A stretch of DNA of 64,000 nucleotides from a virus: positions 1-64,000 of IMG/VR virus record IMGVR_UViG_3300032116_000102; one strand, 5' to 3'. This document shows, piece after piece, positions 14,482 through 18,505 of the stretch. The notes under the pieces were generated by a model that was not told where the DNA came from, did no database searches, and saw only the letters and a program-made list of their open reading frames with translations. Position 1 is the first letter of the stretch, and each line of letters begins with the position of its first letter. A program made the position numbers and the translations under genes.

Positions 14482-14602
14482 AACCTTTACAGATGTATTT
14501 ATGTTCTTTTGATGGTTACATTCTAACTTTGGATAATTAAAAAACGTAATTATCCTGTAAACTAAGGAATATAAACCGTTAACGGCGGTAAAGAACGCAA
14601 AA
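14482..14602. promoter_or_regulatory. Divergent control region with 9-bp inverted repeat
   Basis: This 121-bp gap separates the leftward virion block from the rightward early block. It holds a perfect dyad, GGATAATTA at 14531-14539 and TAATTATCC at 14547-14555, and a 10-bp palindrome CCGTTAACGG at 14577-14586. Either could be an operator. No confident -35/-10 pair was found. Confidence 0.45.
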
Positions 14603-14815
14603 ATGGACGAAGCACTTAGGGAAAGGCGCGAAAACGTACGTCAAACAATTGACCAACGCGCCAATGAACTGCGTGAAGGGGGCATGCACCCGTTCGAAGT
14701 CCAGAATCTACGGTCAGCCGCGAACCAGGAACTGGCCATGGCCGTGCCAGATACTGCAAAATACCAACAAGCACTCAACTTGGCCGCACAGCACGTACAA
14801 AAAGGCGCCGTCTAA
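14603..14815 (+). CDS. Unknown helical protein, 70 aa
   Basis: First rightward gene. Starts MDEALRERRENVRQTIDQ; highly charged and helical. It is followed within 30 bases by a strong terminator, so it appears to be a single-gene unit. Unrecognised. Confidence 0.6.
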   Translation: MDEALRERRENVRQTIDQRANELREGGMHPFEVQNLRSAANQELAMAVPDTAKYQQALNLAAQHVQKGAV

Positions 14816-14842
14816 AACAACAGTGTAATTTTTAAGTCAAAC

Positions 14843-14866
14843 GCCGGGGTTGCACCCGGCTTTTTT
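14843..14866 (+). terminator. Rho-independent terminator
   Basis: Stem GCCGGG (14843-14848) pairs with CCCGGC (14855-14860), six-base loop, followed by six T residues. It ends the 70-aa gene transcript. Confidence 0.85.
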
Positions 14867-15229
14867 GTGTGAATTTTTGGGGTAAGTAGGGAGTTTACGT
14901 ACAAATTAGGGAAAATAGTACATATTTATACAAAAAGCGGCCCTATACAGTTCTGAAAAGGGTACAAAATTACCTGACGCTTCTCCCACCCCCCAACCGA
15001 GGGAGATGCTGTGTAGAAAAAAAGAACAGCATGAGTTATCTAAGGATGATTCTCATTAATATCACCGGAATTTTGATACGAATTCGTATCGACCGAGGAA
15101 TGTCACGGTTTCCTGACATGTTTGGGGCAAACTTAGCGCCCCGCTCTCCCGCGCTCGAAATAGGACAGTGAGCGGAACGGACTTCAAGCATTCTCTTGTT
15201 TTATCAAGGGAGTTGATTGAGTTCACGTC
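14867..15229. other. 363-bp gene-free region with palindromes and hairpins
   Basis: No convincing gene. The left part is AT-rich. The right part holds the palindrome at 15075-15090, a hairpin GGGGC/GCCCC at 15124-15142 and a hairpin CCGCTC/GAGCGG at 15141-15175. Probably the control region of the early block; a replication origin cannot be excluded, but no iteron array was seen. Confidence 0.4.
15075..15090. promoter_or_regulatory. 16-bp perfect palindrome, copy 1
   Basis: GATACGAATTCGTATC, identical to 16692-16707; with flanks, 19 bases (TTGATACGAATTCGTATCG) are shared. This copy is in the gene-free region before the early block. Candidate operator for a dimeric repressor, or the tip of an RNA hairpin as at copy 2. 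Confidence 0.5.
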
Positions 15230-15255
15230 GAGCTGGACGTTAAACGTAGCGCTAC
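15230..15255 (+). promoter_or_regulatory. GACGTTAAAC element, weak member (A1)
   Basis: GACGTTAAAC at 15236-15245 matches the conserved loop of elements A2 to A4. The flanking stem is poor here (GCT 15232-15234 with AGC 15248-15250) and overlaps a palindrome GTAGCGCTAC. It lies 19-38 bases before the ATG at 15274. Confidence 0.4.
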
Positions 15256-15273
15256 CCCATCGCAACTTCACTC

Positions 15274-15456
15274 ATGTTTGCAGTTACCTACTTCGACTAC
15301 GGCTGCCCCGACTTCGGTGGTCAAGAGTATTACGAGGAGGAGAAGTTGTTCTCCAACTGGCCTGCTGCCGAAAGGTACATTCGTTCCCTCGAGGATTACG
15401 AATTCATCTCGGCGGTATATCACTTCAGCTGCTTCGAAGACGACATTCCGTTCTGA
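15274..15456 (+). CDS. 60-aa acidic protein ending in an SSB-like tip
   Basis: Starts MFAVTYFDYGCPDF; small, acidic and aromatic, without hydrophobic helix. The last residues are FEDDIPF, almost the same as the C-terminal tip of bacterial SSB (DDDIPF), which docks partner proteins such as exonuclease I, RecO and PriA. It is far too short for a full SSB OB fold. A mimic that binds host SSB partners is an inference. The leader CGCAACTTCACTC has no Shine-Dalgarno sequence. Its stop codon lies in the 5-prime strand of structure D1. Confidence 0.65.
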   Translation: MFAVTYFDYGCPDFGGQEYYEEEKLFSNWPAAERYIRSLEDYEFISAVYHFSCFEDDIPF

Positions 15457-15502
15457 GTACCAGGCGTGACGCCAGGGGATCGAATCCCCTACTCAGTATT
15501 GC
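15453..15502 (+). ncRNA. tRNA-like three-way junction RNA element D1
   Basis: Closing stem CTGAGT (15453-15458) with ACTCAG (15491-15496); hairpin GGCG-TGA-CGCC (15463-15473); T-arm-like hairpin AGGGG with 7-base loop ATCGAAT and CCCCT (15474-15490), stacked directly on the closing stem as in a tRNA. It is followed by TATTGCC. There is no D-arm or anticodon arm of normal size, so it is not a usual tRNA. The stop codon of the preceding gene is inside the closing stem. Confidence 0.5.
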
Positions 15503-15528
15503 CCCCAGCGGAGATGGGCGCCGCACAC

Positions 15529-15693
15529 ATGGAGAAATCCGTGATGGTCTACGTTGTCACATTGTGTGATCTGTATGCTGATCACCTGATGAATGTCTTT
15601 AGCAGCAAAGAAGCTGCTAATGCATGGATAGCGAAACAGGACAAGGAGGAGGGCGAGTATTGGCTTATCAATGCCATGGTCGTCATCAACTGA
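15529..15693 (+). CDS. Unknown small protein, 54 aa
   Basis: Chosen start MEKSVMVYVVTLCDLY; an upstream in-frame ATG at 15514 sits directly after GGAG and is a possible alternative. The C-terminus EEGEYWLINAMVVIN is hydrophobic. The sequence resembles small SRE-type phage proteins only in size. Its stop lies inside RNA element D2. Confidence 0.55.
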   Translation: MEKSVMVYVVTLCDLYADHLMNVFSSKEAANAWIAKQDKEEGEYWLINAMVVIN

Positions 15694-15740
15694 TCCGTCA
15701 AAGCGGGTTCCAGGGTGCAAACCCCTGGACAGTTATTGCC
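15688..15740 (+). ncRNA. tRNA-like three-way junction RNA element D2
   Basis: Closing stem AACTG (15688-15692) with CAGTT (15730-15734); short hairpin CCG/CGG (15695-15706); T-arm-like hairpin TCCAGGG, loop TGCAAAC, CCCTGGA (15709-15729) directly adjacent to the closing stem; followed by ATTGCC. Same architecture and tail as D1 with different stem bases. The stop codon of the 54-aa gene is within the closing stem. Confidence 0.5.
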
Positions 15741-15769
15741 ACAATCCCGTGGCATCCACTCAACGCAAC

Positions 15770-15937
15770 ATGATTCGTCAGCGATTGTCCCAGCTTCTTG
15801 CCGTAGCAGCGGTCAAGGTAGCTCAAGATCAAACTCCTGAGCGCATCAAAGCTCAACTCAAAGTGCGGCGTGATGCATTGACTCATGAGGTCAATGATTA
15901 TCGCAACGCACTGTCCAACTTCATCGCAGCTAAGTAA
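15770..15937 (+). CDS. Basic helical protein, 55 aa
   Basis: Starts MIRQRLSQLLAVAAVKVAQ; entirely helical with a conserved-looking DALTHEVNDYRNAL region. The leader CCACTCAACGCAAC lacks a Shine-Dalgarno sequence. Unrecognised. Confidence 0.55.
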   Translation: MIRQRLSQLLAVAAVKVAQDQTPERIKAQLKVRRDALTHEVNDYRNALSNFIAAK

Positions 15938-15939
15938 CC

Positions 15940-16182
15940 ATGAAACCTGTCATGATCTACCAGCCTTCCTGCGAACATAACTTACGTGTCGCATGGTATG
16001 GCGGTGAGAGTACACAACTTCACTTCGAGAAGCTCAACATCCAGGGCGAGTGGTACGACAGAGATGTCCGTACCCTTGGCCATGGTATCCCCACAGGGAT
16101 CAAGGAGATGCTTCTCGAGATGGAGAACTACTATCACGAAGGTATCATCCTTGAACAAGAACGTATTTACCAAATGATGTGA
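15940..16182 (+). CDS. Unknown protein, 80 aa
   Basis: Starts MKPVMIYQPSCEHNLRVAWY two bases after the previous stop, so it is in the same operon. Mixed alpha/beta, acidic C-terminus. Unrecognised. Confidence 0.6.
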   Translation: MKPVMIYQPSCEHNLRVAWYGGESTQLHFEKLNIQGEWYDRDVRTLGHGIPTGIKEMLLEMENYYHEGIILEQERIYQMM

Positions 16183-16185
16183 ATG

Positions 16186-16235
16186 ATTCCTGCTCTAAGG
16201 GGCTACGGCCCTTTACTGCAGGAATTAACTCCTGC
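16186..16235 (+). promoter_or_regulatory. Bistable RNA hairpin element C1
   Basis: ATTCCTGC (16186-16193) pairs perfectly with GCAGGAAT (16218-16225) around an inner hairpin AAGGG/CCCTT. A second TCCTGC at 16230-16235 can pair with the same GCAGGA (loop ATTAAC), giving two mutually exclusive folds. Shares TCCTGCTCT, TTTACTGCAGGA and AAC-TCCTGC with C2. Lies just before the SSB-like gene at 16260. Confidence 0.5.
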
Positions 16236-16259
16236 TTCATTCAACTCAACTCAAGTCAA

Positions 16260-16661
16260 ATGTCTGACTACAAGAAGCTCCCTGACTTCCAGCAAACCGT
16301 ACTGCACGGACGCATTGCTCACATGGAGGTGGTCGACTACCAGGATCAGAAGTTCCTCTCTGTATCCCTGGTCCACACCATCTCCGAAGCAACGGACGTA
16401 CGTGTACGGTTTACCAACAGCAACGGCCTGCTTACGGCATTCAACAATGGCACTCTTGTCGTAGGACAGGAGCTGACCATCAGCGGTACCATCAAGGGCA
16501 TTCGTTCCTTCTACATGAAGGACGATGTCCTGACACCGCTCAAGATGCCGGAACTTCAATTCCGTTGCATGAGTTATGCCTTTGGTTCCAAGCCTCAGCC
16601 CAAAGCTGAAGCTGTAATCACACCAGTGGCAGAACCTACGCTGGAAGAAATTCCCTTCTGA
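16260..16661 (+). CDS. Small SSB-like OB-fold protein, 133 aa
   Basis: Starts MSDYKKLPDFQQTVLHGRIA after the G-poor leader TCAACTCAACTCAAGTCAA. Beta-rich with an internal TISGTIKGIR strand pair and a Pro/Ala linker near the end. The C-terminal tip is TLEEIPF, like the acidic tip of SSB proteins. A single-strand DNA-binding or SSB-partner-binding role is inferred. A second tipped protein (31279-32094) is larger. Confidence 0.55.
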   Translation: MSDYKKLPDFQQTVLHGRIAHMEVVDYQDQKFLSVSLVHTISEATDVRVRFTNSNGLLTAFNNGTLVVGQELTISGTIKGIRSFYMKDDVLTPLKMPELQFRCMSYAFGSKPQPKAEAVITPVAEPTLEEIPF

Positions 16662-16669
16662 GACAGCAC

Positions 16670-16741
16670 TCCTGCTCTTAACCCTTCCGTTGATACGAAT
16701 TCGTATCGGCGGTGGGTTTACTGCAGGACTGAACATCCTGC
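16670..16741 (+). promoter_or_regulatory. Bistable RNA hairpin element C2
   Basis: TCCTGC (16670-16675) pairs with GCAGGA (16723-16728) around a long stem AACCC/GGGTT (16680-16718) capped by the palindrome GATACGAATTCGTATC. A second TCCTGC at 16736-16741 competes for the same GCAGGA. Same layout as C1. Ends 19 bases before the ATG at 16761. Confidence 0.5.
16692..16707. promoter_or_regulatory. 16-bp perfect palindrome, copy 2
   Basis: Identical to the palindrome at 15075-15090. Here it forms the tip of RNA element C2. Confidence 0.5.
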
Positions 16742-16760
16742 ATCCACCTCATACAACACT

Positions 16761-17045
16761 ATGCCAATCACCATTGATCATCACGACATCCTCAAAGCAC
16801 TTGGGCTTTACAAACTTGAGGTAACAGACTACTACCTTGAATTTGATAACAACCATGTTTATATGCATTGGGTTTCCTGTCCCAATGACATCGAAGAGTA
16901 CTTGAAGAATGAGAATGATATTTATTTATGCCTTGACTTTCAAGTCAAGGGCAAATGGTTATCTGCTGAGTACTTTGTCAACGACAAAGAGGCGGTAACT
17001 GAACGTCCTTTCATTAACTGCCGTTATCTTTTGGAGATCAACTGA
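16761..17045 (+). CDS. Unknown acidic protein, 94 aa
   Basis: Starts MPITIDHHDILKALGLYKLE. It contains CPNDIEEYLKNENDIYLCLD; mixed alpha/beta. The leader CATCCACCTCATACAACACT has no Shine-Dalgarno sequence. Unrecognised. Confidence 0.6.
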   Translation: MPITIDHHDILKALGLYKLEVTDYYLEFDNNHVYMHWVSCPNDIEEYLKNENDIYLCLDFQVKGKWLSAEYFVNDKEAVTERPFINCRYLLEIN

Positions 17046-17046
17046 C

Positions 17047-17250
17047 ATGAAACACACAACCAGGCTCGGACCCAACCGTTACATCAGACTTGATTCTTAC
17101 GGTGAGTCTCGTGAGACACGCCGTTTCAATATCCTTTGCACCCTCTTCGTCATTGCCATCACGGTTATGACGGCTGGTGCAATGGTCGGCGTCGACATCA
17201 CTAACCTCAACCCACAGAACAATGAGAACACACATCGCCCTGGTCGCTGA
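17047..17250 (+). CDS. Single-span membrane protein, 67 aa
   Basis: A basic N-terminus (about 1-26) precedes a transmembrane segment ILCTLFVIAITVMTAGAMV (about 29-47) and a short polar tail, so the N-terminus is probably cytoplasmic. Starts one base after the previous stop. Function unknown; small early membrane proteins often affect the host envelope or exclude other phages. Confidence 0.55.
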   Translation: MKHTTRLGPNRYIRLDSYGESRETRRFNILCTLFVIAITVMTAGAMVGVDITNLNPQNNENTHRPGR

Positions 17251-17449
17251 TCGTTCCGGTCGTTATGCCCATGTCTGGGGCACAGCCCAAACCTTTTCTC
17301 TGTTTCATGATCAACTCGAAGACATTGGCTGCGAGGTGATCGAAAACCAATCCGATGATTGGGACGGCTGCACCAGAGATGAAATTGCTGAGGACTGCCT
17401 GTCAGTGCATCAGCTGCTCAACGACTCGGACTTCATCCCACACGACTGA
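17222..17449 (+). CDS. Unknown acidic protein, 75 aa
   Basis: Start MRTHIALVADRSGRYAHVWG chosen over an upstream in-frame ATG because it gives the shorter overlap (29 bases) with the membrane protein gene. Ends SDFIPHD. Unrecognised. Confidence 0.55.
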   Translation: MRTHIALVADRSGRYAHVWGTAQTFSLFHDQLEDIGCEVIENQSDDWDGCTRDEIAEDCLSVHQLLNDSDFIPHD

Positions 17450-17455
17450 CTACAT

Positions 17456-17513
17456 CTGGTGTCTCGCAAACACAAGACGCTAAGGCTGGTGCTTGCATCT
17501 TTGTACGTACCAG
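17456..17513 (+). ncRNA. Possible three-way junction RNA element
   Basis: CTGGT (17456-17460) with ACCAG (17509-17513) encloses GTCT/AGAC (17461-17478) and GCTAAG/CTTGC (17479-17496). The tail CTATTC is only loosely like the TATTGCC of D1/D2. Precedes the HTH gene at 17557. Weak evidence. Confidence 0.3.
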
Positions 17514-17556
17514 CTATTCTCTACCTGCATCCACTGCACACAGCTCACCCAAAGCC

Positions 17557-18036
17557 ATGGAAGCCCTTAGCCAACTTGATGTCACAGCACCCGATCACGT
17601 CTCTGTCATTACCAGGGACGGCAAGGTGACCATCTCTGTCCTCAAGGACGGAACCTCTGTCACTCTTGGTTTCCCGATCAAAACACCTTGGATTGATACG
17701 CATCCCCGTCCCCCTTTGCAGCAGTCGCCAGCGGAGGAGATTGGGCGGCGGATTACCAAGGAAGAAGGCCTTGCCTACTTCGAAGAGCTGGCACGGAAAG
17801 ACTCAAAGAACACCACTGTTGTTACCAAGACCAAACGCAGGTCTCCCATTGGTAATTGCAAGTTGACTCCCGAAGCTGTTCGTGAAATCAAGCTGATCCT
17901 GGCTGATAACAAGACGATGAGTCGTTTTGGTTCCAGGCAGCAAGCTTACGAAAAGATTGCCGAAGGCTATTCGGTGAGTCACCATACAATTTCCAACATC
18001 CATAAGGGACTGGCCTGGCGCCAAGTCATCGTGTAA
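17557..18036 (+). CDS. Putative HTH DNA-binding protein, 159 aa
   Basis: The N-terminal half is beta-rich. The C-terminal 60 residues contain KLTPEAVREIKLILADN and then EGYSVSHHTISNIHKGLAW, a helix-turn-helix pattern like those in phage regulators and at the ends of HNH endonucleases. There are no nuclease residues here, so a regulator is more likely. Its position near the start of the early block fits. Confidence 0.55.
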   Translation: MEALSQLDVTAPDHVSVITRDGKVTISVLKDGTSVTLGFPIKTPWIDTHPRPPLQQSPAEEIGRRITKEEGLAYFEELARKDSKNTTVVTKTKRRSPIGNCKLTPEAVREIKLILADNKTMSRFGSRQQAYEKIAEGYSVSHHTISNIHKGLAWRQVIV

Positions 18037-18057
18037 TCAACAGCAACAACACAAACA

Positions 18058-18110
18058 TCTGGGCCTCCACTCTTGAGAATCATTCTCAGTAAGTGGTATA
18101 AGTCCCAGGA
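18058..18110 (+). promoter_or_regulatory. RNA element B1 (CTGGGC / TAAGTCCCAG family)
   Basis: Outer stem CTGGG (18059-18063) with CCCAG (18104-18108), second stem CCACT (18067-18071) with AGTGG (18092-18096), and a tip formed by the perfect 7-1-7 palindrome TGAGAATCATTCTCA (18074-18088). The 3-prime side reads TATAAGTCCCAG, as in B2 and B3. Ends 22 bases before the ATG at 18133. Confidence 0.55.
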
Positions 18111-18132
18111 CATTCATTCAGTTCACCTCAAC

Positions 18133-18339
18133 ATGACTGAAGACAACAAACGGTATCACCTCATCATCAACGTTGATGAGAAGTATGCCATCGTCAATGC
18201 ACTAGCTTTTTATCATGCTCATCACACGCTTGGTTCTTTGCTTGACGAAGACGAGCGTGAACAATATGAGCTTGCATTCAAAGAAGATGGTCCAACTCTT
18301 GTTGATACATTAGCCACAAGAGTTGCCAATACCTTCTGA
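18133..18339 (+). CDS. Unknown acidic protein, 68 aa
   Basis: Start MTEDNKRYHLIINVDEKYA chosen because the upstream ATG at 18073 lies inside RNA element B1 and this ATG follows the usual CACCTCAAC leader. Acidic, ends TRVANTF. Unrecognised. Confidence 0.55.
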   Translation: MTEDNKRYHLIINVDEKYAIVNALAFYHAHHTLGSLLDEDEREQYELAFKEDGPTLVDTLATRVANTF

Positions 18340-18367
18340 AAACCACACACTTCACTCAATTCAAACC

Positions 18368-18505
18368 ATGACTAACCTTCAAACACTTGACGAAAATTAC
18401 AATGCTGATCTTCTAGATGCAATGGCTGACATTGCAGCTGAACAAGAAGAATCAATGCGTAACTCAGATCCACAAGAATGGGAGGGTTACGATGACGAAT
18501 CGTAA
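18368..18505 (+). CDS. Acidic small protein, 45 aa
   Basis: Start MTNLQTLDENYNADLL follows a CTCAATTCAAACC leader. Very acidic with the C-terminus EWEGYDDES. Unrecognised. Confidence 0.5.
   Translation: MTNLQTLDENYNADLLDAMADIAAEQEESMRNSDPQEWEGYDDES

Follow-up and report, generated by a model that had tools for sequence, protein, structure and literature searches.

Two short stretches at adjacent gene junctions of a freshwater cyanobacterial virus, C1 (16184-16235) and C2 (16667-16741), were identified by sequence comparison as two instances of a new RNA element that lies between cistrons and has two conserved folds, each excluding the other. Both pairings of this element, termed family C, are almost certainly real and conserved, and its 107 distinct copies stem from S-EIV1-like phage contigs. 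We propose, with a probability of roughly one half, that family C acts as a reversible, attenuator-like toggle in which a ribosome terminating on the upstream gene would be the sensor and the downstream gene would be the target. The analysed window comprised bases 1-64,000 of an 85,559-base IMG/VR virus record, and its region 14500-18500 gave a single blastn match in the phage collection, to the freshwater Synechococcus phage S-EIV1 (218 bases, 72.5%).

The two copies and their homologues

C1 is flanked upstream by an 80-aa gene and downstream by an SSB-like gene, and C2 separates the SSB-like gene from a 94-aa gene (Table 1). The initial annotation had claimed that in each copy one GCAGGA (strand M) could pair with a TCCTGC on either side (strands S1 and S3), within constant parts common to both copies and around unrelated inner stems. 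All three strands were located as claimed in C1 and C2, the shared parts were recovered (TCCTGCTCT, and an AAC preceding S3, lengthened by an A in C2), and the inner stems were indeed different. The sequence TTTACTGCAGGA occurs exactly twice in the 85,559-base record.

Table 1. Features of C1, C2 and the adjoining genes (positions in the window).
Feature	Position	Strand	Remarks
Upstream gene of C1, 80 aa	15940..16182	+	UGA stop 16180-16182, 5 nt before S1 of C1
C1 fold A 5' strand: TGAT + S1 (TCCTGC, 16188-16193)	16184..16193	+	predicted partner 16218-16227
C1 inner stem P2, 8 pairs (one G.U), UACG loop	16196..16215	+	in both predicted folds
C1 strand M (GCAGGA), common to both folds	16218..16223	+	
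C1 strand S3 (TCCTGC), partner of M in fold B	16230..16235	+	24 nt before next ATG
SSB-like gene, 133 aa, downstream of C1 and upstream of C2	16260..16661	+	
C2 fold A 5' strand: CA, C, S1 (TCCTGC, 16670-16675)	16667..16675	+	CA pairs with TG 16730-16731
C2 inner stem P2, includes palindrome GATACGAATTCGTATC (16692-16707)	16680..16718	+	predicted fold, repeats
C2 strand M (GCAGGA)	16723..16728	+	
C2 strand S3 (TCCTGC)	16736..16741	+	19 nt before next ATG
Gene downstream of C2, 94 aa	16761..17045	+	no PHROG match

The + strand of the window contains 4 exact triples of the form X..rc(X)..X and the - strand 8 (some overlapping); in 60 dinucleotide shuffles each strand averaged 2.6, with a maximum of 7. 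Because a lone exact triple is thus common by chance, we relied on homologues for family C; a chance origin of C1 and C2 was ruled out by the hexamer and flanks shared between the two triples, together with these homologues. A known RNA family was likewise rejected as the identity of the element, with no Rfam family at threshold in C1 or C2, nor at an E of 5 in 15000-18400. One exact pattern had no match in bacterial genome contigs, a search that says little about diverged copies, and no description of family C was found among the full-text matches listed, by which subscription papers are mostly uncovered.

Loci with the SSB-like gene were fetched as two overlapping sets of eleven and then 49, and the layout was recognised by eye 5' of this gene in 45 of the 49, the exceptions being L030-L032, with another element, and L063, with none visible. 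A search model, R2, was built only from the part up to M, so that S3 was not required by the search. Run over 71 sources, it returned 155 matches; the best 150 of 155 were aligned and 107 were distinct after duplicate removal, and dropping copies over 95 nt and near-identical ones reduced these to 86. Among the 5 weakest matches, outside the 150 aligned, one (L039, E 0.063) runs antisense across a true copy. Left out of the search were L001-L014 (other copies or shorter cuts of later ids) and nine loci from represented contigs. Eight copies missed by R2 (L023 7573 and 7908; L024 7413 and 7895; L026 7428 and 7910; L027 7388; L028 7418) are uncounted, and M and S3 pair at 6/6 positions in each of them. 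All 20 records searched held 1-4 matches, which is no frequency since records had been chosen for the SSB-like gene or the element, and in the 15 records with at least two matches these lay less than 1.4 kb apart. S-EIV1 has one copy, 5' of its SSB-like gene.

The first pair counts were biased, the copies having been chosen for pairing. As R2 was trained on such copies and S3 was picked as the best window, two further checks were made, one in which S3 was re-picked after shuffling and one at orthologous sites that was blind to pairing. In the latter, M was located without reference to pairing, G.U and A.C were scored alike, and 34 of 39 distinct sites were used; the other five had no anchor (three with family B, described below, L063 with no visible element, and L060, whose element falls outside the anchor window), and at L027 the script took a wrong S1. 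Related copies share history, and the shuffle and pairing counts that follow are therefore not probabilities.

Two mutually exclusive folds

In the comparison, fold A consists of UGA-Y-S1 paired with M-N-UCA around the inner stem P2, and in fold B, P2 is retained and M is paired with S3 instead. When the 86 copies were aligned with plain MAFFT, standard pairing was present in 95.3% of the 1290 fold A cells, and both partners vary in 10 of the 15 pairs; sliding the partner by one column brought pairing down to 43-47%. Out of 500 shuffles, 10 reached the observed count of doubly changed pairs, and the other four measures were reached in none. Beyond S1:M the helix continues past a one-base mismatch, mostly pyrimidine against pyrimidine, where the upstream UGA pairs with the UCA just after M. 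Across the 107 copies this arm is paired at -2:+2 in 105, at -3:+3 in 106 (G-C in 82, G-U in 16, A-U in 6, C-G in 2, unpaired in 1) and at -4:+4 in 90, with -1:+1 paired in only 6. Altogether 301 of 321 UGA:UCA pairs form, against at most 296 after shuffling, a small margin because both sides are conserved; compensated forms of the arm occur in C2 (CA with TG) and in L017.

The initial annotation had set loss of the third strand in close homologues as the outcome that would count against the switch, and the opposite was found. Pairing of S3 with M reaches at least 5/6 in 106 of the 107 distinct copies (6/6 in 98, 5/6 in 8, less in 1). When the downstream stretches were shuffled and the best S3 was picked again, a mean of 37 and at most 45 of the 86 copies reached 6/6, compared to 78 observed; for the 38 copies with an unusual M the observed number was 30, compared to a mean of 8 and at most 14. 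At the 34 orthologous sites, with M picked blind to pairing, S3 matches M by Watson-Crick pairs throughout in 29 cases, and the remaining 5 contain one G.U each. Examples of S1/M/S3 sets are TCCTGC/GCAGGA/TCCTGC, GTTTGC/GCAGAC/GTCTGC, GACTGC/GCAGTC/GACTGC, GGTTAC/GTAGCC/GGCTAC and ATCTGC/GCAGGT/ACCTGC. Among 34 distinct triplets, only S3 is the exact complement of M in 15, only S1 in 3, both in 4 and neither in 12, so S3 tracks M and is not a mere repeat of S1. Two copies (L037 8413 and L040 8395) have a longer M-S3 loop of 13-14 nt, a mostly lost UGA:UCA arm and a stop codon further off (16 nt).

Wobble pairs point to family C acting as a sense-strand RNA. In S1:M, all copies together hold 63 U.G against 10 A.C or C.A among 642 cells, a count in which copy selection favoured G.U; at the orthologous sites, where the two kinds were treated alike, the numbers are 24 against 5 in S1:M and 5 against 0 in M:S3. 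In addition, 19 of the 86 copies have an inner stem capped by a UNCG-type loop. This wobble bias, these loops and the tracking of M by S3 all speak against a cassette boundary or recombination site acting at the DNA level, with repeats complementary by accident, which as a main function has only a very small chance of being correct. It would fit two observations: L026 7428 and 7910, which belong to one genome, share about 46 nt without a difference, which suggests recent duplication or gene conversion between junctions, and the gene immediately downstream of the corresponding element in L016 is separated from C2 in the window by an extra gene. Recombination may still shuffle family C copies. 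The palindrome GATACGAATTCGTATC was found in the window in the long gap before the operon (15075-15090) as well as in P2 of C2 (16692-16707), and in relatives in 9 of the 86 aligned copies; it is possibly an operator or a small mobile insert.

According to prediction, fold A with the UGA arm included is the more stable in 104 of 107 copies, by 4.1 kcal/mol on average, and fold B leads (base-pair probability over 0.5) in 5 of 107, the S-EIV1 copy among them. When the UGA and S1 were blocked in the prediction, to mimic a ribosome covering them, P2 plus M:S3 remained. The predicted cost of opening the start region -20..+12 then changed by a mean of -0.17 kcal/mol (97 copies), and the -35..+12 region became 5.06 kcal/mol harder to open, with a change above 1 in 87 of the 97 copies.

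Adjoining genes and a proposed response to terminating ribosomes

The element sits between genes, with spacings, downstream groups and the family B stops below taken from gene calls made by script, some of them doubtful. An upstream gene could be called for 104 copies; its stop codon precedes S1 by 1 nt in 71 of them, by no more than 9 nt in 91 and by 13-45 nt in the other 13. For the 106 copies whose downstream start could be called, the distance from the end of S3 to this start is 18-32 nt in 97. TGA forms the three bases before the mismatch in 89 of 107 copies (TGA ends 38 of the 76 long open frames in the window), and because it is kept in 17 copies although the real stop is another codon, the TGA belongs to the element as well.

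Proteins encoded downstream (n=105) fall into groups of 32 (small, membrane-like), 31 (SSB-like), 18, 6, 6, 3 and 3, with six singles. The SSB-like family was found in none of the 14 records fetched via the element (six over 76 kb, the rest shorter fragments), and the same search found it in 7/7 records known to hold the gene. Given these varied groups and the 0/14 count, the element is not tied to one gene. The 133-aa product resembles single-strand DNA-binding proteins in its model, with five strands and one helix in OB order (predicted; mean pLDDT 83.8), a C-terminal EEIPF and 4dam_H as best Foldseek hit (E 4e-4, TM 0.56 by query length, 13% identity); it had no PHROG match, and S-EIV1 has another gene annotated as ssDNA-binding protein. 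The model and the clustering of copies around this gene would suit an SSB-like protein that regulates its own gene, as T4 gp32 does; the gp32 leader RNA, upstream of a phage single-strand-binding protein gene, is a pseudoknot tied to one gene. Family C differs in occurring without an SSB-like gene, shows no constant tie to it among the downstream genes and records above, and in only 31 of 105 cases precedes one, which makes this reading barely plausible.

The strand order, the UGA and the spacing are best fitted by an exchange of strands driven by the terminating ribosome, towards which we lean on sequence grounds; the terminating ribosome is taken as the trigger because fold A reaches as far as a UGA with which the upstream gene ends, or which lies close to that end. 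The position of the stop codon in family B, an unrelated element at other junctions of these phages described below, also favours this reading. Fold A would be the resting state, as it can be the first to form while the RNA is transcribed and has the greater predicted stability in most copies. With a stop codon in the A site, the ribosome footprint extends about 10 nt further downstream, and a ribosome reading the end of the upstream gene would take the UGA and S1 into its mRNA channel. M would then be captured by S3, so that opening fold A would cost little, and departure of the ribosome would reverse the M:S3 flip. The weakest step of the proposal is how the flip would alter the downstream gene, perhaps through a shorter unstructured stretch before the start codon or, alternatively, because the U-rich P2-M joint becomes open to nuclease attack. 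Against the toggle stand the 13 of 104 copies with stops 13-45 nt away, the stops of C1 and C2 at 5 and 8 nt before S1, the 5 copies in which fold B leads, the small margin of the UGA:UCA arm over shuffling, and the unchanged -20..+12 region. In view of the 17 copies with another stop codon, pairing in the helix may also be the sole reason why the UGA is conserved, its closeness to the stop being a by-product of a compact genome.

Nuclease action is central to a further reading, a processing element in which the long fold-A helix or the U-rich P2-M joint is cut, M:S3 then protects the 5' end of the downstream message as a hairpin, and the upstream message is capped at its 3' end by P2. The small pyrimidine-rich internal loop in the long helix, the U-rich joint, the indifference to particular genes and the placing of S3 where M could re-pair after the cut would all agree with processing; since processing alone explains neither the UGA arm nor the 1-nt spacing from the stop codon, we consider it unlikely on the whole.

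The initial annotation had read the two folds as the logic of a riboswitch or attenuator. What stands is that two exclusive folds lie just before start codons and that both are kept by compensated changes; a ligand-type riboswitch and a terminator-type attenuator are not supported, as no promoter- or terminator-like site was found inside C1 or C2, the -20..+12 region is predicted to be equally open in both states, and many unrelated small genes lie downstream. Conserved positions are mostly the paired strands and joints, with no conserved pocket-like loop beyond them and no Rfam riboswitch match, and sensing of a ligand or protein by the element is highly unlikely. Compared to attenuators, family C has two mutually exclusive RNA folds kept by evolution and one strand where a ribosome with a footprint of the general size given above would cover it (stop at most 9 nt from S1 in 91/104). 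It is not filed as a member of that class because neither a terminator (scan of C1 and C2) nor a hidden ribosome-binding region (-20..+12 unchanged, 97 copies) was found.

Three other candidates were set aside. A terminator was searched for in C1 and C2 and none was found. Hiding of a Shine-Dalgarno sequence, considered as M often contains AGGA, is at odds with M being GCAGAC, GTAGGC, GTAGCC or GCAGTC elsewhere and lying well over 20 nt from the start. Stop codon readthrough into the next gene was thought unlikely, with element lengths varying by single bases (by eye).

Other junction elements and known systems

At the SSB-like gene of L030-L032, family C is replaced by family B, an element found at 15691-15769 of the window, at L001 1701 and 1995, and in 41 copies in the loci. 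Its layout is CTGATCCGT..AAGCGGGT, a variable stem with loop GTGCAAAC, then CAGTTATTGCC; the closing helix occurs in the compensated forms AACTG/CAGTT, AGTTG/CAACT and AAGTG/CACTT, and in 38 of the 41 copies the upstream gene stops at the UGA on the 5' side of the element. A possible H-type pseudoknot (GCGG with CCGC) was often seen by eye. Family A (TGAGTACCAGG..GCCAGGGGATCGAATCCCCTACTCAGTATTGCC), of which a strict pattern gave two copies (window 15454-15537; L068 3913), carries a tRNA T-arm-like hairpin inside a helix that includes the stop codon UGA; at 15454, UGAGUA pairs with UACUCA and this UGA is the stop (by eye and script).

From families B and C and the single family A example in the window, we put forward the speculative idea that this lineage fills its junctions with unrelated RNAs that take the upstream UGA into or beside a closing helix, and that terminating ribosomes reset the junction RNA, a form of termination-sensing control. 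On the same tentative footing, family C would work by three-strand exchange, with family B standing in for it at one orthologous site.

Two other repeats were noted. TGAGAATCATTCTCA lies at window 18074-18090, with half of it at 15045-15056, and both presumably resemble a Fur box. A repeated leader, CTGGGC..TCCA..GGTATAAGTCCCAGGA, was found at window 18060-18117, at L001 4018-4057 and 4705-4770, and also in S-EIV1.

The promoter-early stem-loops (PeSL) of T4-type phages, which combine a promoter and a terminator, are similarly intergenic stem-loop modules repeated between small phage genes and perhaps linked to gene shuffling. Family C differs from them, with neither an early promoter nor a terminator stem-loop in C1 or C2 (in a scan that excludes other cyanophage promoter types) and with a three-strand exchange that lies outside the PeSL definition. 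The leaders manA, wcaG and PhotoRC-II are, like family C, conserved structured RNAs occurring in cyanophages; they differ in being listed in PMC2864571 with metabolic, exopolysaccharide or photosynthesis genes, and no Rfam family reached threshold in C1 or C2. In ribosome-controlled attenuation and 'RNA unfolding' translational coupling (review PMC12548453), a ribosome on an upstream coding sequence masks a strand and so chooses between two pairings, as is proposed for family C. Compared to those systems, the family C sensor would be the end of a full gene and not a leader peptide, the UGA lies in the helix, there is no terminator, the start codon is unburied, and a single fold family is used at many genes unrelated to one another.

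Proposals of bistable RNAs often rest on one sequence; both folds of family C are backed by compensated changes in about 100 copies, with a strand order that hints at the trigger. If the proposal is true, family C would be a compact, gene-independent tie between the end of one gene and the state of the RNA before the next, and the copy in S-EIV1 makes the element open to study in a cultured phage-host pair.
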